Below, in pieces: positions 53,775 to 64,000 of a DNA stretch of 64,000 nt (position 1 is its first letter; each line of letters starts with the position of its first letter). This stretch comes from Enterobacter hormaechei subsp. xiangfangensis (lineage in GTDB: Bacteria; Pseudomonadota; Gammaproteobacteria; Enterobacterales; Enterobacteriaceae): the NCBI RefSeq assembly GCF_001729785.1, contig NZ_CP017183.1, positions 2,728,001 through 2,792,000 of the forward strand, read 5' to 3'. The notes under the pieces are model-generated. The model saw only the letters and a list, made by a program, of their open reading frames with translations, was not told the origin of the DNA and searched no databases. Both the position numbers and the translations under genes were made by a program.

Positions 53775-54268
53775 TGTACGTGGGCCTGCCCCAGTGGTCG
53801 CACCCGAAATGGGTGCGCCTGGGTATTACCAACCTTGAAGAGTATGCCCGACACTTTAACTGCGTGGAGGGCAATACCACGCTGTACGCTCTGCCCCGCG
53901 CGGAGATCGTCGAACGCTGGCGCGAGCAAACCACCGACGACTTCCGCTTTTGCTTTAAATTCCCGGCGACCATCTCCCACAACGCCGCGCTGCGCAACTG
54001 CGATGATTTAACCCACGAGTTTTTCACCCGGATGTCGCCTCTGGCCAACCGTATTGGCCAGTACTGGCTCCAGCTTCCCGCCACGTTTGGCCCACGCGAC
54101 CTGCCCGCCCTCTGGCAGTTTCTCGAGGCCCTGCCACTTGATTTCACCTACGGCGTAGAAGTGAGGCATCCGGAATTCTTTGCCAAAGGCGACGCGGAGA
54201 AAGCGCTCAATCGCGGCCTGCATGAACGATCGGTCAACCGCGTGATCCTGAAGAGACCTTTCTATTGA
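53771..54268 (+). pseudogene. yecE: YecE (DUF72), 3' part cut off by a mobile element
   Basis: The first about 160 residues match E. coli YecE (272 residues): GLPQWSHPKWVRLGI, CVEGNTTLYALP, FKFPATISH, VEVRHPEFF. After NRVIL the sequence turns to KRPFY and a stop, where E. coli continues DSRPVHAA. The remaining about 110 codons are not in the window and should lie beyond its right end. The TIM-barrel cannot be complete, so the gene is most likely inactive. yecE is a known prophage insertion site (Stx2e phage P27). Confidence 0.92.
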
Positions 54269-54292
54269 TACACTTTCCCTCTCAGACTGAAA

Positions 54293-55102
54293 TCACTTAT
54301 TTTGAAGATTAATCTCTGATGTTTCGCTTTGGTTGAGTTTAACCTCTTCAATAAATTCAGCTACGCTCCGTTTTTTCCTTATACCATTCTTCAGAGCATT
54401 CCTTTGTTCTGAAAGCTCGAAGTCTTCCACGCTGAACAAATCAGAAATTTCATCCACCAATTGCTGAACTGACCTTCTGTCATCAAGTCTTAGGGCTTTT
54501 TCTAACAGAGTCGTAACGTTTATCGCAATATCTTGAATCTTTTGCTTTTCCTTTAACAACTCTTCAAAATCGGCTTTCTCATCCTCAAGTTTTTTGGTAA
54601 GAAGTTCAATTTTTTCATCAAGGATTTTCTTTTGGGTTTCAAGCTCTTCAGTTAGTATCTGCTCGCGCTTGCCTCTTTCGACTTCAGTCTGTATATCAGC
54701 GTTGATTTTGGCAATTTCAACATCCACTGCCATATCTGATTGAACCTTAAGCTTTGATAGCTTGATGTTATCTTGAAACACTCTCTCCTTGGACTGAAAA
54801 ACATTATCCTTGTATCTGTCATCAGCCCACCTATGTGCCTGAGACAGGAGCCACTGAGCATAGGGTGAGACAACAGCCAAAATGCTGCCAGAGAGGATGG
54901 GGGCAAACACGTAATACAGATAGAAATAATCCTGTGAAAGGATGTAATCGATTCGGAACTTTACAGGCGCATCACTCATGAACAACATTGCTAGGTTAGG
55001 CCAATTAAACCATGTCCACGCCAGAATAATGAACCCCCACAAGGGACTCTTAATCCTCTGTTCTAAAGCATGTTTCACTGAATCAGTGAGACCTCCATCC
55101 AT
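54293..55102 (-). CDS. Unknown membrane protein with a long coiled coil
   Basis: 269 residues. Two TM segments (about residues 20-40 and 62-85), then a long charged heptad-rich helix (about 110-215, with EELETQKKILDEKIELL and KKLEDEKADFEELLKEKQ) and an acidic tail. The start MDGGLTDSV is preferred because AGAGG lies seven bases before it; an earlier ATG would add 31 residues. It is the first gene of the element beside broken yecE and runs toward it. I do not recognise a family. Confidence 0.7.
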   Translation of the reverse strand: MDGGLTDSVKHALEQRIKSPLWGFIILAWTWFNWPNLAMLFMSDAPVKFRIDYILSQDYFYLYYVFAPILSGSILAVVSPYAQWLLSQAHRWADDRYKDNVFQSKERVFQDNIKLSKLKVQSDMAVDVEIAKINADIQTEVERGKREQILTEELETQKKILDEKIELLTKKLEDEKADFEELLKEKQKIQDIAINVTTLLEKALRLDDRRSVQQLVDEISDLFSVEDFELSEQRNALKNGIRKKRSVAEFIEEVKLNQSETSEINLQNK

Positions 55103-55260
55103 TATTGAACCTCTAATTCTCAGCTTTTTCTTATCATAATCGTTCAAAATATTTTTCGAAACAATACTGGCAACATGAATGGCCACCCTCGGCAACCCTT
55201 ACAATTAGAAGATGGCTAATCGATTGATAAACATGAATACGGCGGGATTAATGAGAGGGG

Positions 55261-55599
55261 TTAAACAGCTTCAAGCAAATGAGAGAGAGCAACCACTCGG
55301 ATTCGTTCTTGCGTGTAACCTGCTAAACGGTACTTCTTAACCAACGAGTAACCAATCTCATCCAGACGGTTAAGAGCCTTATCAGACAGCTTCACAATGA
55401 TGTTATTTCGGTTATCCCCACCTTCAGAGTGAAACGGTGCTCTTGCTGCTGAAGCGGTTACCCGTACAATCTGTGGCTTTGGTTTAGGCGGCTGTCTACG
55501 TGTCTTTGAACAGTCCACACATCTACCCGATGAGACATAACGGATAAGTGAGCCGCAATGAATGCAAGGCTTATCAGGGTTAGTGAAAGTATTAGCCAT
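55261..55599 (-). CDS. Small zinc-ribbon protein with a ribbon-helix-helix-like tail
   Basis: 112 residues. An N-terminal treble-clef-type ribbon (CIHCGSLIRYVSSGRCVDC), a basic proline linker, and a C-terminal segment NNIIVKLSDKALNRLDEIGY that looks like a beta strand plus helices as in ribbon-helix-helix proteins. A DNA-binding role is likely but not shown. It overlaps the upstream gene by eight bases, the last of four compact genes. Confidence 0.6.
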   Translation of the reverse strand: MANTFTNPDKPCIHCGSLIRYVSSGRCVDCSKTRRQPPKPKPQIVRVTASAARAPFHSEGGDNRNNIIVKLSDKALNRLDEIGYSLVKKYRLAGYTQERIRVVALSHLLEAV

Positions 55600-55780
55600 T
55601 TAAGAGTCCTTCTAAGTAGCTGGTGATTCGGGCTTGCTGGCAACGGGTTGAACCATCGTTTGAACGGCGAACCAGCTTATCAAATAATTGAGGGTGGATT
55701 TTTCCAACCAGATTGTGACCAACAATTAGACGCTTTTCAGAATCGTAATAGTTAATAGGGGCGTTAATTGTATCTTCCAT
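55592..55780 (-). CDS. Small unknown protein of the four-gene operon
   Basis: 62 residues, no TM segment, no recognised motif (YYDSEKRLIVGHNLVGKIHP). It is one base after the preceding stop and overlaps the next gene, which supports it being translated. Confidence 0.5.
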   Translation of the reverse strand: MEDTINAPINYYDSEKRLIVGHNLVGKIHPQLFDKLVRRSNDGSTRCQQARITSYLEGLLNG

Positions 55781-55781
55781 A

Positions 55782-56042
55782 TCAGCCCCCGCTTACCATC
55801 TGTTTAATAGCCTCTTTCAAGGCTGCATCTCTTTGCTGTTCAATTGTTGGCTTAGGCTTCACCTTATACGTGGTCACCGCTTTAGCTGGCTTCACTGAGG
55901 GCTTTGGCTTATTACCTGAAGAGAGTGCTTTAAAGGTTGATTCACTGATTTCATTTTGACCGTTGAAATATTTGAATTCCATTGAGTCAGTAAGATGATT
56001 ATAGCTGCCACGTTTGGACAGCCCTTTCATTGGAATACTCAT
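55782..56042 (-). CDS. Small basic unknown protein of the four-gene operon
   Basis: 86 residues, Lys/Pro-rich middle (KPKPSVKPAKAVTTYKVKPK) and a short helical end. Its ATG overlaps the stop of the preceding gene by one base. No family recognised. Confidence 0.5.
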   Translation of the reverse strand: MSIPMKGLSKRGSYNHLTDSMEFKYFNGQNEISESTFKALSSGNKPKPSVKPAKAVTTYKVKPKPTIEQQRDAALKEAIKQMVSGG

Positions 56043-56605
56043 TATTCGGTCACCTCTTCAGAATCGGTGACAATCACGTTCAGGTAATCTGTAAAGTCTT
56101 TTACAGCATCCCGAGCTTTACGGGCTTCAATCACAATCTTGTTTCGCTGGTGTACAGCTTCAGAGGTTTTTACCTTCAGACGTTCAATCATCTTTTCAAT
56201 GGCTAATTCAGCTTCAGCTTCAGCTTTATCAGTTGCGTCTTTCAGAGCATTCTTTTTAGATGAGATAAAATAGATTAAGCCCATTCCTACACGATGAACG
56301 ATATAACCTTGTTCAGCCATGCTTTGAATCACAGATTGCTGGTTTGTTGGGTAAACCTGAACAACTTTAAAACCGTGTCTTTCAGACGGGTTAGCCAAAT
56401 ACTCAGCCGTCTTCTGTTGAATAAGCACTGAGCGGGATTCTAGAGCGTTTTGATATTCAAATTCAGCTTTACTCATTCGGTCAGTGGCCTGTTGAATCCG
56501 TGGGAAGTACAACTTTTCAATATGCTGTTTCTGTTCGAACGGTAATAAGTGGGAAATGCTTGCAACTGGCGATTCAATTCTTACAGCTTGATTTAAATTA
56601 GTCAT
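56042..56605 (-). CDS. Unknown 187-residue protein, first of the four-gene operon
   Basis: A largely helical soluble protein; charged helices near residues 30-70 and 115-165 (AEAEAELAIEKMIERLKVK) could form a coiled coil. No TM segment. It starts the compact operon that ends at 55261, and a promoter-like segment lies at 56852-56872. Confidence 0.55.
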   Translation of the reverse strand: MTNLNQAVRIESPVASISHLLPFEQKQHIEKLYFPRIQQATDRMSKAEFEYQNALESRSVLIQQKTAEYLANPSERHGFKVVQVYPTNQQSVIQSMAEQGYIVHRVGMGLIYFISSKKNALKDATDKAEAEAELAIEKMIERLKVKTSEAVHQRNKIVIEARKARDAVKDFTDYLNVIVTDSEEVTE

Positions 56606-56872
56606 TAGTAATTACTCTTAGTCTGGTTTGCTTAGATTTCAGAAAGCACAAAACCGCATCCAGCCAACTTAATGTTACGGGACACGGTTCAATGTTTTCA
56701 AATTAGGGCTGTTCATCTTCTCAAGAGGAATTCCCGTCACTCGTTCGGGATGGATGCCAAAGAAGATAAACAGAAGGAACTGAGGAGTCAGATAATAAAT
56801 CGGGGATTGATGGATGGTGAAATACCCCCTAACTCATATAACCATTCTTTCATACATTAACAAATTGTCAAC
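56606..56872 (-). promoter_or_regulatory. Leader and promoter-like segment of the four-gene operon
   Basis: The rightmost 21 bases (56852-56872) are a near copy of the promoter segment at 59120-59140 and include a perfect TTGACA; an AAGAAT -10 lies 16 bases on. About 230 bases of leader follow with only very short frames. From 56873 to 57012 I see nothing further. Confidence 0.45.
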
Positions 56873-57012
56873 AGTTTCTAAGTGATTATTTCTCGGATAA
56901 ACCTGACGAGCAAAAACCTTTTACATGGCTGACATCCTAAAATCTTTTGATTGCCTCACTATAAAGCTTTAGATAAAAACCTTATAAAGCCACAATTATA
57001 TAATTTCAAGCT

Positions 57013-57849
57013 TTACTCTCTGGCGCCACCATCTCGAACCATTTTTGCCAAATCATTAACTGAACTATCATTTTGAATGCTATGCTCTAGCTCAGACCAA
57101 ACTTCCCAGTCAACATCAACTTCATCGATACTTTTATCACCGAAGCATATCGATATATACCGGACAATATTTCGGCAAACTAAATAGTAGTTCAATGCCT
57201 CAAGTCTTGAAGCTGGTTCAGGTGATGATAAATGGGTAAGTTCATTTCGTCTTTTTGAGATGACTTCATAAAGAGAAATCTGATTTTCAGATAACTCTTT
57301 TACACCCAACCTCCCCCACCGTTTAATTCTTTTACGACATGAGGAGAATTGATACTCTGCCATATGCCTGTCAATGCTTTTTCTTCTAATGCCTTCTATG
57401 CCATACTCTTCTACATCTTTCAAGGTGTATTTATCATCATTACAAATCCTCTGTAAATTTGAGGACAATTCCTTTTCGTAGACATAGAATTCATATTCTT
57501 CCAGCAGGCAAAACAAGTAAAGAATTGTTTGCGCCGACATAATTTCTTCAGGCTTAGTCATTTCATGAATATTAATGAACTTTCGCCCCCCACCTTTTCC
57601 TTTTTCTGGAGTTTTAAAGTCATTAATAACATGTATTGCAAGCTGGAATAGTTCGGATGTCTTCAGGGCTAATGGGAGGATTGTTTTATCCAATCTTGGA
57701 CGGTTTGCTGCACTATGTAAACTTGGGCCAGTAGACCATTTCTCCTCCGAAAATGACATTGCCGAATTAGCAGCGACGGCCAACTCACAAGCGTAAAGTG
57801 CGGAATGAACATACAATTCCATTTTCTTTATTAAATCCACAGCTTTCAT
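57013..57849 (-). CDS. Unknown protein with a HEPN-type RNxxxH motif
   Basis: 278 residues from MKAVDLIKKM, chosen because GAGG lies six bases before it. Mostly helical, soluble. Residues 201-206 read RNELTH inside SKRRNELTHLSSPEP, followed by a helix LNYYLVCRNIVRYI, the pattern of HEPN RNases that occur in toxins and phage defence. The N-terminal part has no recognised domain. It is not clearly in an operon; it lies between two element operons. Confidence 0.6.
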   Translation of the reverse strand: MKAVDLIKKMELYVHSALYACELAVAANSAMSFSEEKWSTGPSLHSAANRPRLDKTILPLALKTSELFQLAIHVINDFKTPEKGKGGGRKFINIHEMTKPEEIMSAQTILYLFCLLEEYEFYVYEKELSSNLQRICNDDKYTLKDVEEYGIEGIRRKSIDRHMAEYQFSSCRKRIKRWGRLGVKELSENQISLYEVISKRRNELTHLSSPEPASRLEALNYYLVCRNIVRYISICFGDKSIDEVDVDWEVWSELEHSIQNDSSVNDLAKMVRDGGARE

Positions 57850-58011
57850 CTGTTGCCTCATTATCAATAATGAATACTTAGTGACGGCTATATTATATAC
57901 TGCAATAGAATTGAGTGCTATAGCGAAAAGCAATAACTACCAATTTTATCAACTGAAAGGTTCATATTGTCTGCTTCCACTCACAGTAGTGATACCTTTG
58001 CATTGTTAAAG

Positions 58012-58179
58012 TCACACAACTATTATTTTATCACAACCACTAATCTCATTCATTTTCTTATTGAGCAACACCGCTAAGGTCTGCTGTCGTGTTAAATCAT
58101 ATTTTTCACCTAATTGACTCAATAGTTCAAGCGTCTTGACTGGCATATTGACTACTGAAGCCTGTTTCTTATCCGGCAT
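58012..58179 (-). CDS. Tiny ribbon-helix-helix-like protein
   Basis: 55 residues: a strand-like ASVVNMPVKTLE then a helix SQLGEKYDLTRQQTLAVLLN. It has an AGAGGAG ribosome site 9 bases before ATG and overlaps the previous gene by 11 bases. Its layout parallels the next gene (LTRQQTLAVLL against LSRQKTLEIIV), so the two are probably paralogues. Likely transcription regulator. Confidence 0.6.
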   Translation of the reverse strand: MPDKKQASVVNMPVKTLELLSQLGEKYDLTRQQTLAVLLNKKMNEISGCDKIIVV

Positions 58180-58300
58180 TGTTTAACTCCTCTTTCACGA
58201 TAATTTCTAAGGTCTTCTGACGGCTCAGGCCGTACAGCTTAGATAGCGCTTCTAGCTTTTTTATTAGTGCTGGCGCAATATGCACCACTACGTATTTCAT
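58169..58300 (-). CDS. Tiny ribbon-helix-helix-like protein
   Basis: 43 residues from MKYVVVHIAPALIKKL, preceded by AGGAA. A strand (YVVVHIAP) and two helices (LIKKLEALSKLYG, SRQKTLEIIVKEELN) fit the MetJ/Arc fold. It starts just two bases past the stop of the Rep-like gene, in the same operon. Confidence 0.6.
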   Translation of the reverse strand: MKYVVVHIAPALIKKLEALSKLYGLSRQKTLEIIVKEELNNAG

Positions 58301-58301
58301 T

Positions 58302-58865
58302 TTACAATTCCTCATAAACTGGCATTTTAATTGGTTCGTCGTCTTCCTCTGAATCACTGACAAAAAGATAATTCAGTTTACTTTCTGATTTAGGCTTTGG
58401 TTTAGAAAGACGGATAATAACTGGTTCAATCTCTTCTACAACGTCAATAAATGGATTCTCATCTCCTTCAATCACTGGAAAGGGAAGGACATTATTAGAA
58501 TCACTGGTAATTATGGTCTCTGGTTCAGATACTGATTCAGGTTTATTATCTTGCTGGTGGCGTTTAATTAATTCAGGTGGCATGATTTCAACTGTGTACA
58601 CCTTAGAACTATCATAACGCTGAATAGAACTAATAAGACATGATTCATGTAATTGGGTTAAAGCCCCTATAGCAACCTTTCGTCCAATACCAAACAATTC
58701 ACACAGGTAATTAATTGAGGGGAAGACTTCTTGACCGTTTCTTTGAAGACCTACCATAAACAGGTAAATCATTTTAGCTGAAAGAGATAACTTAACACCG
58801 TTGAAAGAAGTGATTCGGGTTACATCACTATAAGCGGGGGTAAACGGGATTTCATAGAGTTTCAT
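58302..58865 (-). CDS. Winged-helix (HTH_36-like) protein, possible replication initiator
   Basis: 187 residues. An N-terminal winged helix (about residues 25-90; SLSAKMIYLFMVGLQRNGQE and GIGRKVAIGALTQLHE) resembles HTH_36 proteins of phage and plasmid replication modules. The C-terminal half is acidic and proline-rich, probably disordered. It lies about 340 bases from the iteron-like repeats, on the side expected for a rep gene. A plain transcription regulator is the alternative. Confidence 0.6.
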   Translation of the reverse strand: MKLYEIPFTPAYSDVTRITSFNGVKLSLSAKMIYLFMVGLQRNGQEVFPSINYLCELFGIGRKVAIGALTQLHESCLISSIQRYDSSKVYTVEIMPPELIKRHQQDNKPESVSEPETIITSDSNNVLPFPVIEGDENPFIDVVEEIEPVIIRLSKPKPKSESKLNYLFVSDSEEDDEPIKMPVYEEL

Positions 58866-58922
58866 TCATGGGATTTTCCTAATATCAGAAATGCCTTTTA
58901 ACAAGGCCGTATATTGTTCGGT

Positions 58923-59072
58923 TTAAGCTGTGATTACATTTTCACGAATCATGTTTTTAATCAGGGCTGAGTAGCTAACACCCTGTTTCGCTGCCATTTC
59001 AACAATTTTACGGTGAATGGCGTGTGATACTTCAACGCGGATTGTTACTTGCTGTGGGATGTCTTTTCTCAT
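58923..59072 (-). CDS. Tiny ribbon-helix-helix protein
   Basis: 49 residues: MRKDIPQQVTIRVEVSHAIH as strand, then helices (RKIVEMAAKQG, SYSALIKNMIRENV), a typical Arc/CopG layout. The internal ATG follows AAGGAAAG. It is first in the operon downstream of a TTGACA promoter and may autoregulate it. Confidence 0.65.
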   Translation of the reverse strand: MRKDIPQQVTIRVEVSHAIHRKIVEMAAKQGVSYSALIKNMIRENVITA

Positions 59073-59110
59073 TGGGCTTTCCTTCATGCAATTCAATAAG
59101 CTATAGAAAT

Positions 59111-59139
59111 ACTGTAACAATACATTAACAATCTGTCAA
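59111..59139 (-). promoter_or_regulatory. Sigma-70 promoter of the RHH/Rep operon
   Basis: On the minus strand TTGACA (59134-59139), 17 bases, TACAGT (59111-59116), about 40 bases before the first ATG. The -35 and spacer share 19 of 21 bases with 56852-56872, with a repeated TGTTnA every 10 bases that could be a repressor site. Confidence 0.6.
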
Positions 59140-59204
59140 CATATTTGTTTGATTTTTAATCTCAAATAGTATAAGGGATTCTTTTTTGCATGATTAGTTG
59201 AAGG

Positions 59205-59291
59205 GTGGGGATACCAAAACGGTATAGGGGGTCTACCAAAAGGGAATGGGGGGTGTACCAAAACGGCATAGGGGGTATGCCAAAAGGAAAC
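59205..59291 (+). repeat. Four iteron-like direct repeats, 22-bp period
   Basis: GGGGnTACCAAAAcGGnATA-type units. The CC of each TACCAAAA-like core falls at 59214, 59236, 59258 and 59280, an exact 22-bp spacing (about two helical turns). Such arrays are initiator-binding sites of plasmid origins; here they lie upstream of the RHH and Rep-like genes. Confidence 0.75.
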
Positions 59292-59901
59292 ACTATTAGA
59301 ATAAAGATAAGAATAGAGAAGAGAACAGAATAACTAAATAGATTACTGTAAAGAGGGCTAACGCCCTGAATCACCATGATTTATTTACCTTAACCGATTG
59401 TAATCGATTGTTTTTTATGCTACCCTAAAACCTCTTAACAGATTCTTTTTGTTCTTTGTTTTTCATCTTCTTGTCTCTGAGTATCTTTTAAGAGTTCTTT
59501 AAAGAAGCCCCTCTAACCTCACCTTGCTTCGCTCATCGGTGATTCTGGTTTCCACCTTGTAGCCTTCAATAAATCATATCGGGATCCGTGAAAGAGGCTT
59601 TGAAGCTGGTGGATGAATTTTCACAAATATTATTTTTCTAAAAAATTTTCAGACCTATTTTTATTTCAGCTTTACCGGAAACTTTCAGCATATCTAAAGC
59701 AACTTTGAAGATTTTGGATAGTCTGAATCTCTCTGCTTAGTAGCGCCCTTTTCAAAGATTCCATACCAATGGCAAAAAATGAACATATCTGAGCCTGTAC
59801 AGCGCTCTAAGCGATTATTTAATGATAGTAACCCTAACCCATAGGTTAATAACAAAGACTGCTTAGAATGCGTTACAGGGATCCTGATAAACGCCAGACA
59901 T
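59292..59901. other. AT-rich region between the iterons and the resolvase
   Basis: I see no supported gene here. There are short repeats (CGATTGTAATCGATTG near 59396-59411) and long T/A-rich runs, which would fit an origin's unwinding region. An 82-codon frame (59694-59942) runs through the resolvase terminator and is unlikely to be real. No clear DnaA box was found. Confidence 0.4.
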
Positions 59902-59923
59902 AAAAAAGCCCCAACGAAGGGGC
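59902..59923 (-). terminator. Terminator of the resolvase gene
   Basis: On the minus strand GCCCC/GGGGC with loop TTCGTT and T6 after it, 23 bases past the resolvase stop. Confidence 0.8.
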
Positions 59924-59945
59924 ATTGTGAATCACCATACAATTG

Positions 59946-60500
59946 TTACTTGTTCAGTCGATAGAAAGTCGCCTTACTAATCTGTAACTCACCCTGCACC
60001 TGCTTTGGTGACATTCCCTGTGAAAGAAGTTCCTGAACCTGTTCAGCTGTTGCTTTAATCGGTCTGCCACAGTGAACCCCTTCTGACTGAGCACGTTTGA
60101 TGCCAGCTGTGCGGCGCTCTGCTATCAAGTCTTTCTCTAAAGAAGCCAATCCAGCCATCATAGTGAGCATTGCCTTACCCACTGGTGTAGAAAGGTCGAA
60201 CCCCTCACGCAAGCTGATAACCTTCACACCTTTAGCCTGTAAAGTCTCAACCGTGGATAATACGTCGATGGTATTACGGCCTAAGCGGTCGATCCCGATA
60301 ACTACCAGTGTATCCCCTTCACGTACATAGCTCAGTAGGTCACCGAACCCTTTACGCTCTGTTGCCTTAATGCCACCTGATACAGCCTCATCAGAGAACC
60401 ATTTACCCACCTGATAACCAGCCTCATTGATTTGTTTCTTCTGGTTCTCAATAGTCTGGTCAGAAGTTGAAACTCGAACGTAAGCGATTACAGATGACAT
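59946..60500 (-). CDS. Small serine resolvase/invertase
   Basis: 184 residues. The catalytic Ser11 is in YVRVSTSDQ, with further motifs FSDEAVSGG, VVIGIDRLGRN and the E-helix LASLEKDLIAERRTAG; a C-terminal helix-turn-helix (SPKQVQGELQ, SKATFYRLNK) binds DNA. This is the full Tn3/Hin family length. A repeat-rich segment just upstream is a good res-site candidate, so it may resolve dimers of the circular element or invert DNA. Confidence 0.9.
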   Translation of the reverse strand: MSSVIAYVRVSTSDQTIENQKKQINEAGYQVGKWFSDEAVSGGIKATERKGFGDLLSYVREGDTLVVIGIDRLGRNTIDVLSTVETLQAKGVKVISLREGFDLSTPVGKAMLTMMAGLASLEKDLIAERRTAGIKRAQSEGVHCGRPIKATAEQVQELLSQGMSPKQVQGELQISKATFYRLNK

Positions 60501-60521
60501 TATGGTGATTCCCTGAAAGTT

Positions 60522-60642
60522 GTCTCAAAACCTAGTCTCAAAATGATACATGTATCAAAACTCAAAATCAACCTTTTGAGACGAGCTAATCACACCTTTA
60601 GAGACCCTTTTCAGCAGTATCAAAACCACTTCCTTTTGAGAC
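60522..60642. promoter_or_regulatory. Candidate resolvase recombination site (res)
   Basis: The 9-mer GTCTCAAAA occurs at 60522 and 60535, and its inverse TTTTGAGAC at 60574 and 60634, with an imperfect TTTAGAGAC at 60598. A perfect 14-bp palindrome TGATACATGTATCA (60544-60557) lies inside. Position just before the resolvase start fits a res site or an autoregulatory operator. Confidence 0.6.
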
Positions 60643-60729
60643 TGCATCGACTGAGGGTTGATTGTAACCACATGACCAATCAATTATCTTAAAAGCCACT
60701 TGATAGCCCCTAACATAGACGGTAAGAGC

Positions 60730-61065
60730 ATGTTACACACAGCGGCATTGATTGCCCCAATCATCGGTTATTGTTCGTTCAGTTGTGGGATGACCTCATA
60801 CTTATGGTGTAAAGGTAAAGAGTTGAGCAAGTTGGGGTGGGTACTTGCCATCTTTAACGTTGCGGCCTTTTTATATCTGAATCACATATTGCTTATTGAC
60901 CTGATTCAACGTGTGGCTGATACGTCTGATGGCTATATAAGCATCTTTGATGATGACTTTGTGTCGGATGTTTCCCGCAATACCATTCAGATTATGATTA
61001 CCTATATAGCGGCCTCAACTGCTGGCGGTTACTTTGGAGCAAAGAAGAAATTTAAACAGGATTAA
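60730..61065 (+). CDS. Small unknown membrane protein
   Basis: 111 residues with about three TM segments (near residues 5-27, 38-58 and 88-105). No family recognised. The ATG is chosen over a TTG 30 bases upstream; neither has a strong ribosome site. A hairpin CTGTTCT/AGAACAG lies at 61082-61101. It is alone on the plus strand. Confidence 0.5.
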   Translation: MLHTAALIAPIIGYCSFSCGMTSYLWCKGKELSKLGWVLAIFNVAAFLYLNHILLIDLIQRVADTSDGYISIFDDDFVSDVSRNTIQIMITYIAASTAGGYFGAKKKFKQD

Positions 61066-61356
61066 ATTCACTGAATAATGCCTGTTCTGAATAAAGAACA
61101 GTTAATAGGCTACAGCTATTGATAATGCTTGTTTAGATAGGTGTTTTTAAGCCACCTATGAACACTGTTTTTCACTGTTAATTTAGCCATCTAAACGGCT
61201 ATTCTTCAGCGTTAGCAAGTCATTGAAGGGGTCACTATGGAAATTTCAAGAATCGAAAAGGAAATCTGGCTAACCATAGCGGCTAAACAACTGTCTCACA
61301 AACTAACTTTTCACTAAGATGATAAGGATGACACAGCATAAGGAGCTTCAAAGGAA

Positions 61357-62280
61357 ATGAAAGAAACCATTTATAACATCTTCTGCTTTTGTCCTGATGG
61401 TGTTCACATCACACATTGCGGAATCGTTGCGCATGAACGAGATGGTGACGATAATCAAAAACTGGAATTTTTAAGCAAGCAGTTAGAAACTGATTTAGCT
61501 TCTTGTAGGGCATTTCATGACATTCACCCTTCTGTACTCGATGATGACAAAAAACTGACACTTACAAGGTACAACACAAACTTGAGAGTGGGTAATAGCT
61601 ACGCCCCCTTTGAGTTGGCTCTTGAGGCTGTTAAAGCCCCTGCTAACCCTTTACTAATCGTTACACCAGTTGTTCAGAATAAGTTACAATATCATATTAA
61701 GCATCCGGTAGATGAACAATTGAGGAATGAACACACCCCTAACTATCATATTGAGGGGGTTCTTGACATTCCAGACTACCTTAATAAGTATTTAACAGGG
61801 AGTAAATTCCACCTCAAAAAGCTGATTAATGATGACCACATGGAGCCTGTGAAGCTTCTCTTTAATCAAAAACACTATATATCAAGCTTTAAGCTACTTG
61901 TTTCATTAATTGATACCATTGCTTACCTTGAATATGGTGACGTGAAAAGGAACTTCCAACAATGGCTCGATACCTATTCAGAAATCAGCAAGTTAGACAT
62001 TACACCTGATGAAGTCTATCAGTTGAGGAACTCTTTATTGCACATGACCAACCTCAACTCCAGAGATGTTCTGAAGAAAAAGCATCGACGCCTGAGCATT
62101 GCCATTTGCAAAAAAGGTCATCCGACTCAGTATCATGATGAAATTGTATATTTCAACTTTACAGACTTTTTATTCATCTTTGATGAAGCTGTTGATAGAT
62201 GGGTTGATAGCTACAGAGATAGTAAAAAGCAGTTAACTTTAATTGAAAGATATGATGAAGTATTGAGAGATAACTTCTGA
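61357..62280 (+). CDS. Unknown protein with a HEPN-type RNxxxH motif
   Basis: 307 residues, no TM segment. Residues 224-229 read RNSLLH in VYQLRNSLLHMTNLNS, preceded by a helix FKLLVSLIDTIAYLEYG, the HEPN RNase pattern. The N-terminal half (about 1-130) is mixed alpha/beta and not recognised. It is a single gene on the plus strand, ending at its own terminator. It shares no clear similarity with the other HEPN-type gene outside the motif. Confidence 0.65.
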   Translation: MKETIYNIFCFCPDGVHITHCGIVAHERDGDDNQKLEFLSKQLETDLASCRAFHDIHPSVLDDDKKLTLTRYNTNLRVGNSYAPFELALEAVKAPANPLLIVTPVVQNKLQYHIKHPVDEQLRNEHTPNYHIEGVLDIPDYLNKYLTGSKFHLKKLINDDHMEPVKLLFNQKHYISSFKLLVSLIDTIAYLEYGDVKRNFQQWLDTYSEISKLDITPDEVYQLRNSLLHMTNLNSRDVLKKKHRRLSIAICKKGHPTQYHDEIVYFNFTDFLFIFDEAVDRWVDSYRDSKKQLTLIERYDEVLRDNF

Positions 62281-62288
62281 GTAAGAAA

Positions 62289-62304
62289 GGGGCGAAATCG
62301 CCCC
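62289..62304 (+). terminator. Terminator of the 61357-62280 gene
   Basis: A compact stem GGGGCG/CGCCCC with loop AAAT, nine bases past the stop, then ATTAATT. Confidence 0.55.
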
Positions 62305-62345
62305 ATTAATTCACTGAGATTCTAACTTACCAATATAGCTAATAG

Positions 62346-62669
62346 TTAGCGAATTGAGCCATCAGGATAAAGATACATTCCACCTTCAAGATAAACCGCT
62401 TCACCATCTTCAACAGCCATATCCTCATATAGTGCAGCTAATTCATTCGGCTCTTTTTCCAGTGAAAGGTATGTCTCAACATCATAATCTTGTGCTTCTA
62501 ATTCTTCATTTGAAGAGACACCTAACTTTTGCTTTAAAGCTACAATATCAAAAATCCAAATCTTGCCATCCTTGACGTAATAAGCGCCATTATCATAACC
62601 ACGCTCATCAAGAACTTTTTCAAAGCCCATTGAAAGGGCTTTAAACACACTATGTTTTTTGTTAGCCAT
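62346..62669 (-). CDS. Unknown acidic small protein next to the recombinase
   Basis: 107 residues, soluble and acidic (YEDMAVEDGEAVYLEGG). It starts 54 bases after the recombinase stop on the same strand with GGGG six bases before ATG. No family recognised; place suggests an excision or anti-restriction helper, but this is a guess. Confidence 0.55.
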   Translation of the reverse strand: MANKKHSVFKALSMGFEKVLDERGYDNGAYYVKDGKIWIFDIVALKQKLGVSSNEELEAQDYDVETYLSLEKEPNELAALYEDMAVEDGEAVYLEGGMYLYPDGSIR

Positions 62670-62723
62670 AACTACCCCTGAGAATATTTTTGTTTGAGCA
62701 ATAAGTTACCTTCTTTAGAGGGC

Positions 62724-64000
62724 TTACTCAATCATCCTGTAAGTGTCAAAATCGAACTCATCAGCCTCTAACACTGGCAAGACTTCTAAGAAGATTTCAC
62801 CGTCAACCACCCTATCAAGTGGAAAGTTAAGCAGCTTCAAGCCGTTGTGTAAGAAGACATCACATTTCTTTCCAGCCGTGTTAAGTTGGATTTCTTTCAC
62901 TATCCGCTTAATGATAATTTGCGCCTCTATCCGGTCTTTCTTCACAGTCAAATCAAGATGACTGATTGTCTCAAGCTGGCTTGATTGCTCTCGCTGGTGA
63001 ACCTCTGAGACAGCCTTTTCAGCGTCCTTAATCTGGCTATTCAGGGCTTTCAAATCCTTAGCCATAGATTCGGTATCATCTGCCAGCATAGCCAGCTTAA
63101 TAAGCCTCTCACGCTGTTTGTGAAGCTCTTCTAGCTCACTTTGAAGAGAGCCTATAGCAGAGCCGTTATTACGATTGAGTGAAAGACGGTTAGTATTGTA
63201 AAGCAGCCCCTGAACCAATGCGCGGTCAGTCTGCAATCTGCTGAACCCAACACTATTACAGCGCCCTTCACTCTTCATTGAGCATTTGTAAATACCAGAC
63301 CTTTTAGCAGACACACCCGCAACAACGACAATAAAGCCACACTCAGAGCATCTGAGAACGCCCTTGAAGAGATTTGTTAGCAAAGGTAAGTCAGAGGAAG
63401 GTTTACGTCCTGAACCCTGTTTAAGCTGCTGTACAGCGTAGAATTGCTCATCGGTGATTATTGCGGGGTAATAGTTAGAAATCTCAGCTACACCCTTAAC
63501 AGCCATTGATTTAGAAGGGACTTTGTAACCAATCACCGAACGGTTTGAAAGTAACTCTGTGACCGATGATTGAGACCAGCCGCCTGTAACGGATTTGAAC
63601 TGGTTCAGAGTGGAAAACCCTTCATCATTCATTTGCTTGGCTATCTTGACGTGAGACAAGCCCTCTAACCGTAGCTGAAAGACACGTTGAACAGCCTTTA
63701 CATTCTCAGGGATGAATTCAAAGTGTGAACGGTCTTCAGAGACTTTTAACCATGCTGCACAACGCTTAGACATGATTTCACCGTTAGCTGCACGTTCCCT
63801 TTTAGCAGCCCATACAGACCTTAAACGGGTAGATTTCATCGCGGATTCTTCGTGTGCTCGTTCCATCACCAGCATTGCTTTAATCATGGAAAGCGAATCT
63901 TTGAGACTTTCTTTCGTGTACCACTCGTTATCGACAAGGGTCACCACTTCAACGCCAGCCCTGAGAATTTTTCTAAGCTGTTCCCCTGCTGTATCGATGT
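62724..64000 (-). CDS. Large serine recombinase (integrase), N-terminus off the window
   Basis: About 425 codons are visible; the frame stays open to the window edge (IDTAGEQLRKILRAG precedes VEVVTLVDN). The end of the catalytic domain is followed by a recombinase domain (about 80-190), a zinc ribbon (CSECGF with CSMKSEGRC), a coiled coil (SLQSELEELHKQRERL) and a C-terminal tail, the layout of phiC31-type integrases. The catalytic serine is outside. It is the likely integrase that placed the element in yecE. Confidence 0.92.
   Translation of the reverse strand, partial: IDTAGEQLRKILRAGVEVVTLVDNEWYTKESLKDSLSMIKAMLVMERAHEESAMKSTRLRSVWAAKRERAANGEIMSKRCAAWLKVSEDRSHFEFIPENVKAVQRVFQLRLEGLSHVKIAKQMNDEGFSTLNQFKSVTGGWSQSSVTELLSNRSVIGYKVPSKSMAVKGVAEISNYYPAIITDEQFYAVQQLKQGSGRKPSSDLPLLTNLFKGVLRCSECGFIVVVAGVSAKRSGIYKCSMKSEGRCNSVGFSRLQTDRALVQGLLYNTNRLSLNRNNGSAIGSLQSELEELHKQRERLIKLAMLADDTESMAKDLKALNSQIKDAEKAVSEVHQREQSSQLETISHLDLTVKKDRIEAQIIIKRIVKEIQLNTAGKKCDVFLHNGLKLLNFPLDRVVDGEIFLEVLPVLEADEFDFDTYRMIE

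Follow-up and report, generated by a model that had tools for sequence, protein, structure and literature searches.

Do iteron-like repeats inside a bacterial chromosome mark an origin from which the surrounding island could be copied as a free element? The question is raised by a 64,000-nucleotide stretch of Enterobacter hormaechei subsp. xiangfangensis DNA (contig NZ_CP017183.1, positions 2,728,001 to 2,792,000; here, the window), in which four repeats with a 22-bp period (59207..59289, plus strand) lie in a chromosomal island, upstream of a minus-strand gene (58302..58865) for a 187-residue winged-helix protein with an HTH_36 domain. In our view, the array quite likely belongs to the replication origin (oriV) of an element that is integrative and either satellite-like or plasmid-like, and forms the part bound by the initiator. 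This reading draws on the replication-family matches of the HTH_36 protein, core repeats in phages, arrays in related loci, the existence of free plasmid relatives, and a natural pairing of the winged-helix (wHTH) domain with the array.

The regularity of the array is not in doubt. Tandem Repeats Finder (TRF) reported a single array at this place (period 22, 3.9 copies), whose score of 103 is the highest among the 14 rows for the window, and a repeat search gave start-to-start distances of 22 and 22. Self-identity at lag 22 amounts to 50 of 66 bases, against 37 for the best other lag (10 to 40) anywhere in the window; the maximum lag identity was 39 in 300 first-order Markov simulations as long as the island portion inside the window (9,756 bp) and 40 in 2,000 simulations of the local 200-bp stretch. 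The array is far above chance, in agreement with the preliminary description of this DNA, which had reported four repeats at exactly 22-bp spacing. The units read, in order, GTGGGGATACCAAAACGGTATA, GGGGGTCTACCAAAAGGGAATG, GGGGGTGTACCAAAACGGCATA, and GGGGGTATGCCAAAAGGAAACA, each with a G run 5' of a CCAAAA core. The core positions given earlier (59214, 59236, 59258, and 59280) are correct for the first C of CCAAAA; TACCAAAA itself starts 2 bp before that base, and the fourth copy reads TGCCAAAA. Copy 1 has perfect 5-bp inverted arms (ATACC-AAAAC-GGTAT), and the arms of copies 2 to 4 are partial or weak. The single-strand fold of the array has a z score of -2.26, with 6 of 200 shuffles equally good.

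Allowing up to two mismatches, the iteron pattern has five forward matches and no reverse match in the 4.66-Mb genome; four are the array itself (0, 0, 1, and 2 mismatches) and one lies elsewhere. Because a backward-read control gives four forward and three reverse matches, chance alone is expected to yield single two-mismatch matches. What carries weight is the clustering, together with the exact matches.

The proposed replication initiator is the HTH_36 protein, with its wHTH at about residues 15 to 95. The HTH_36 domain scores 33.2 bits against a curated Pfam cut-off of 25, and all seven PHROG matches of the protein are replication proteins; its O-like homology is weak (E 8.5e-4, PHROGs). 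A first AlphaFold model was poor (mean pLDDT 46.7). The second reached a mean pLDDT of 65.3, with block means of 79 to 95 for residues 11 to 100 and low confidence in the acidic C-terminal tail, and the top VIA-align entry for the protein model is 4RO3, the DnaD-like N-terminal domain of the initiator of the phage-inducible chromosomal island-like element (PLE). A viral structure library yielded 47 matches at an E value of 0.001 or less; seven of the 50 matches listed are named replication initiation or DnaD, most others are unnamed, HTH, or uncharacterized, and one is MarR-like. Among close homologs, the variable sites within the first 100 residues cluster at residues 52 to 70 (11 of 19 versus 11 of 81), a pattern suggestive of switching in binding specificity; variation also affects the tail (36 of 87 residues).

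Upstream of the HTH_36 gene stands the first gene of the unit (58923..59072, minus strand, ATG at 59072), encoding a 49-residue ribbon-helix-helix (RHH)-like protein whose Pfam matches, HicB and RHH_1, both fall below the curated cut-offs. The repeats had been placed upstream of the winged-helix gene, which is correct, with this short gene in between. Such an arrangement might also suggest an operator, bound by the RHH-like or the HTH_36 protein solely to regulate the unit. Binding to repeated operators is common among RHH and wHTH proteins, and the array does lie upstream of the unit. However, the best promoter-like site (TTGACA-17-TACAGT, 59111..59139, minus strand) starts 68 bp from the near end of the array, and a 9-of-12 site starting at 59165 is still 42 bp away; the promoter call is itself weak, since a scan of the region gave 10 sites where 7.0 were expected, which is not clearly above expectation. 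On the other side, no plus-strand frame of at least 50 residues starts between 59290 and 60096. The array is instead adjoined by an A-rich tract with imperfect 12-bp repeats (59289..59348), in which 45 of 60 positions (75%) are A or T, 33 of them A; by composition, the tract fits the AT-rich region of an iteron-type origin and is a candidate for strand opening. Arrays also occur in seven of eight free plasmids of this kind (see below), which need an origin. An operator is therefore an improbable explanation. A 71-residue minus-strand frame (59162-59377) runs through the array, and the gap is nonetheless treated here as noncoding. Tandem 10-mers (TAACCGATTG/TAATCGATTG) at 59391-59411, past the AT-rich tract as seen from the array, are a possible second site at which a protein acts on the origin. 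Rfam gave no match across 54000-64000.

Distant elements show a comparable architecture. HTH_36 relatives, which are 22 to 33% identical across the blastp-aligned parts, were found in 4 of 392 genomes of the family (own genome included) and, with a profile at an E value of 1e-4, in 43 of 394 genomes of the order, many of these matches being short. By DNA, the gene of locus L080 occurs in 9 and that of L047 in 172 of 5,426 Escherichia coli genomes. The gap beside the HTH_36 unit holds an array (period 14 to 30, TRF score of at least 60) in 9 of 13 loci, including the window, and 256,167 bp outside such gaps hold a single array site of this type; by eye, the 13 loci represent about seven lineages and are not independent cases. 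The G run and TAnCAAAA of the window array recur, in the same strand sense, in the arrays of L046 (two copies, 22 bp, GGGTATAGCAAAAnTTGCCA) and L047 (GGGGGTATAACAAAACTCTGTA, with spacings of 24 and 22), and in both gaps the best match of the window motif is the array (p 0.077 and 0.007, respectively). The motif does not pick out the arrays of L081, L085, L086, L090, and L091. No matching array was found in the stretches of L048 and L044 examined, and the motif finds nothing in L048. At the threshold, no array is present in L080, L083, or L084; a palindromic array of the GGAAAATATTTCC type with a lower score (44) occurs in L080 and L083.

The core repeats recur in phages. The TACCAAAACGGTA core occurs twice, at a distance of 3 to 15 bp, in 13 viral contigs, in all of which the repeats lie inside a gene whose first 100 residues look winged-helix-like by eye; several contigs are near-copies, leaving about five groups. 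A Pfam scan covering four of the 13 proteins returned Phage_rep_O (9.8e-28), HTH_36 (2.7e-8), Phg_2220_C, and weak HTH matches only, one each. The iteron-pair pattern has one stretch in viral contigs (L012) and none in genome contigs. In direct searches with the protein, tblastn against plasmids gave no match at 1e-5 and three weak ones at E values of up to 5, and the phage search found two Aeromonas phages (30%, covering 35% of the protein, E 5e-3). An HTH_36 alignment search of genome contigs and a protein search of viral contigs gave 31 and 23 pattern matches, respectively, none confirmed. Blastn of the array with its flanks against plasmids was rejected, the 20 matches listed of 240 records having E values of 2 to 7 and lying in the AT-rich part.

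Free plasmid relatives exist. The circular E. coli plasmid pZ1322MEC0003-2 (13,238 bp) encodes an HTH_36 protein (E 1.4e-7) along with capsid, tape-measure, and baseplate proteins, and has no annotated integrase; the HTH_36 protein is the only rep-like protein among the 11 of 16 annotated proteins scanned (Pfam or PHROGs). Similar plasmids are found in 7 of the 5,426 E. coli genomes, at nine places, all of them in plasmid records and none chromosomal, by a megablast search that would miss more-diverged chromosomal copies. One of these records, L098 (NZ_CP043822.1), is 39.6 kb long and matches the 13-kb plasmid at three places, seemingly because it is a trimer or through an effect of the assembly.

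These plasmids bear on a further alternative, namely, a role of the array in partition, as a centromere-like site for the RHH-like or HTH protein, similar to the single-protein partition systems R388 StbA and pSK1 Par. Such systems commonly have repeats ahead of a small DNA-binding gene, and the small protein beside the HTH_36 gene of L046 weakly matches a partition family (E 0.0086). Against this stand the HTH_36 matches, which are to replication proteins, the free plasmid with no other rep-like protein among those scanned, and the lack of a ParA-type ATPase among the island proteins scanned. We regard a partition site as less probable still than an operator.

A 23-bp array lies in the gap of seven of the eight plasmids; in the eighth (L095), none was found in the part of the gap examined, the record start cutting the gap. 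Comparison of the plasmids also supports the origin reading, through a natural pairing of array and wHTH. L092 and L094 have wHTH domains that are 98% alike and identical arrays, while their C-terminal parts are 30% alike; conversely, L094 and L097 have C termini that are 95% alike and different arrays. The small open reading frame (ORF) between the array and the HTH_36 gene is 87 to 99% alike in all 21 plasmid pairs, independently of the array (89% in L092/L094 versus 99% in L092/L093). Because this intervening ORF does not follow the array, simple linkage of array and wHTH is unlikely. As a caveat to the unlinked reading, similarity in L092/L094 extends past the array into the next 400 bp (89%), which thus go with it, and one block end lies beyond the array. 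In a Mantel test with seven plasmids, the array correlates with the wHTH (r 0.76, p 0.0055) and not with the C terminus (r 0.03, p 0.44).

Several observations weigh against the pairing or against the phage comparison. (i) The rank correlation of array and wHTH over plasmid pairs is weak (0.26, p 0.26). (ii) The pairs L096/L097 and L096/L098 run contrary to the pairing trend, with wHTH domains that are 58 to 59% alike and moderately similar arrays. (iii) The HTH_36 family has no significant HHalign match to the phage O set. (iv) The exact 18-mer of iteron 1 was found in five stretches of viral contigs, one in one gene and four in copies of another, all in long frames that do not look replication-like by eye; we rejected these as coding coincidence. 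On balance, origin-like iterons with a neighboring winged-helix initiator, as the preliminary description had proposed, are well supported by comparison.

The island that carries them is, as had also been claimed, a chromosomal insertion: 10,092 bp lie within yecE, with the ATCCT core at both ends (left junction, 54245..54249; right junction at window coordinate 64337-64341, outside the window). The joined yecE flanks align across the junction in four of four same-genus genomes examined (78 to 84% identity), which are thus empty sites. Adjoining the right end is the gene for a large serine recombinase, or integrase (518 residues; 62724..64000, minus strand, continuing to window coordinate 64280), with which a protein search found 468 proteins at an E value of 0.001 or less. 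A small serine recombinase of the resolvase/invertase type (184 residues; 59946..60500, minus strand), a candidate multimer resolvase, is preceded by a 132-bp cluster of GTCTCAAAA/TTTTGAGAC repeats in direct and inverted orientation (60514..60645), a candidate res site. It is 34 to 45% identical to the small recombinases of L044, L048, L086, L087, and L089 and 87% identical to one in a Klebsiella pneumoniae element (L091).

It could be argued that the array is a decayed, nonfunctional remnant of a satellite or plasmid origin. Copies 2 to 4 are less symmetric than copy 1, and the head and tail genes of the relatives were not recognized among the island proteins scanned (Pfam, PHROGs). Yet the frames of the integrase, the small recombinase, and the HTH_36 protein are all open, the period is exact, and eight of the nine close homologs of the HTH_36 protein (83 to 90% alike) are 183 to 187 residues long. 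Decay is about as improbable as an operator.

For a working origin, we infer the following sequence of events. The large serine integrase would excise the 10.1-kb island as a circle. The HTH_36 protein would bind the 22-bp repeats through its wHTH, open the adjoining AT-rich tract, and recruit a helicase of the host or of a helper phage, and the circle would replicate. The RHH-like protein, made together with the HTH_36 protein, probably regulates the unit, and the small serine recombinase, which has a repeat site of its own, is the probable resolvase for multimers. The island can thus probably copy itself as a free circle after leaving the chromosome; replication after excision, also part of the earlier proposal, is a prediction here. 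The proposed name, integrative plasmid-like element, is too narrow as worded. Free plasmid relatives do exist, but "plasmid-like" should be widened to "satellite-like" because many of the relatives found carry phage head or tail genes and because PLE, the nearest island that has been studied, depends on a helper phage for replication (PMC7145576).

Integrated islands with iteron origins whose replication has been tested include Salmonella genomic island 1 (SGI1) (PMC7433901), PLE (PMC7145576), and a Gram-negative phage-inducible chromosomal island (PICI) (PMC6092414). PLEs, satellites of Vibrio cholerae, are likewise integrated, with a large serine integrase, their own initiator, and noncoding iterons, and their initiator has a DnaD-like N-terminal domain (4RO3) (PMC7145576), which the HTH_36 model resembles. 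However, the PLE initiator is of the RepA_N type, which is absent from the Pfam matches of the HTH_36 protein up to an E value of 1, and PLE replication depends on the helper phage ICP1 (PMC7145576), whereas no helper is known for the island. By analogy, the island may need a helper, as PLE does. SGI1 is integrated, has an origin with four GC-rich iterons and AT-rich tracts, and replicates in its excised form; it differs in its RepA_C initiator, 17-bp iterons downstream of rep, DnaA box, and control by IncC plasmids (PMC7433901). No match to RepA_C (or to the replicase/PriCT-1 alternative) was found among the island proteins scanned, and none to a DnaA box in 57901-60000 by simple patterns. 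The Gram-negative PICIs, also enterobacterial, have iterons adjacent to an AT-rich region, and the replicon of EcCICFT073 was tested on a plasmid; in contrast to the island, they have a Pri-Rep initiator, an origin 3' of rep, and iterons on both sides of the AT-rich region (PMC6092414). No primase match was found among the island proteins scanned (Pfam, PHROGs).

The lambda-type origin offers four 19-bp imperfect inverted-repeat iterons, G tracks, an AT-rich neighbor, and, among viruses, relatives with TACCAAAACGGTA cores, but lambda iterons lie inside the O gene (PMC7466680), while the island array lies upstream of its unit, and the O-like homology is weak, as noted above. The plasmid Rep modules of pAES7, pMARC3, pMOS2, and pAES1 share the HTH_36 initiator, and the first three also have iteron-like direct repeats, as in the island; they belong to plasmids (PMC3832669), whereas the island is chromosomal, with its array upstream of the unit. 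With several in-register direct repeats of about 20 bp near an initiator-like gene, the island resembles an iteron replicon. Judged by its genes, it is a new variant of the iteron-replicating islands (PLE, SGI1, and PICI) and a member of none; what differs is that a large serine integrase occurs together with a proposed HTH_36 initiator whose group is common to capsid-bearing enterobacterial elements and free plasmids. No published description of this combination, of the island, of HTH_36-iteron satellites, or of these capsid-bearing plasmids was found in the titles and abstracts among the matches listed, bioRxiv and most subscription papers being outside the search.

An annotated major capsid protein accompanies the HTH_36 unit, in most cases with an array, in L083 to L085, L089, and L091 (integrated) and in L090, L092, and L094 to L098 (plasmids), and several of these elements have annotated tape-measure or baseplate proteins; the stretches shown carry no annotated terminase or portal. 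Such elements resemble satellites of a type that brings along its own head and tail-length proteins. The genome of the window itself holds a second HTH_36 element (L080, 5900-17850; host genome C1:3025900-3037850), which has, by eye, capsid- and tape-measure-like genes and a small tyrosine-type recombinase, and its GGAAAATATTTCC palindromic repeats lie near an AT-rich stretch.

Evenly balanced, in our estimation, is the broader proposal that small enterobacterial elements with a common replicon (RHH-like protein, HTH_36 initiator, and iterons) form a group not yet described, either integrated by a serine or tyrosine integrase or existing as free 13-kb plasmids, many with their own capsid and tape-measure genes. 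In this group, the wHTH and its iterons would be swapped together as a matching set, the C-terminal domain and all else being variable, and natural incompatibility types would result; the island would be a capsid-less member. On the origin reading, an anonymous genomic island becomes an element that probably replicates, and its initiator/iteron pair is testable and of a type unlike those described for PICI, SGI1, and PLE. The free-plasmid relatives provide a route to testing the movement of such elements between integrated and plasmid life, and the natural pairing of wHTH and array is a ready-made specificity experiment.

Downstream of the HTH_36 gene are two minus-strand genes for small proteins, CopG-like by eye and without a Pfam match (58169..58300 and, with 55 residues, 58012..58179). 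The gene at 57013-57933 encodes a protein of 306 residues (or shorter) with a subthreshold Apea-like HEPN match (E 0.045), a possible defense gene; PADLOC gave no match for the seven island proteins given. The 300-residue protein encoded at 54293-55195 appears by eye to combine membrane and coiled-coil segments and matches only PHROG families of unknown function. The window DNA has no match among the E. coli genomes. In another genome, a different element with a related serine integrase (70%) occupies the same yecE site (L044, 5663-17061); the window HTH_36 protein has no blastp match among its frames, and it carries tape-measure and tail-family proteins. Finally, the genes at 60627-61940 show 93 to 94% DNA identity to two Cronobacter plasmids, in two to three pieces, and this part of the island is therefore common to plasmids.
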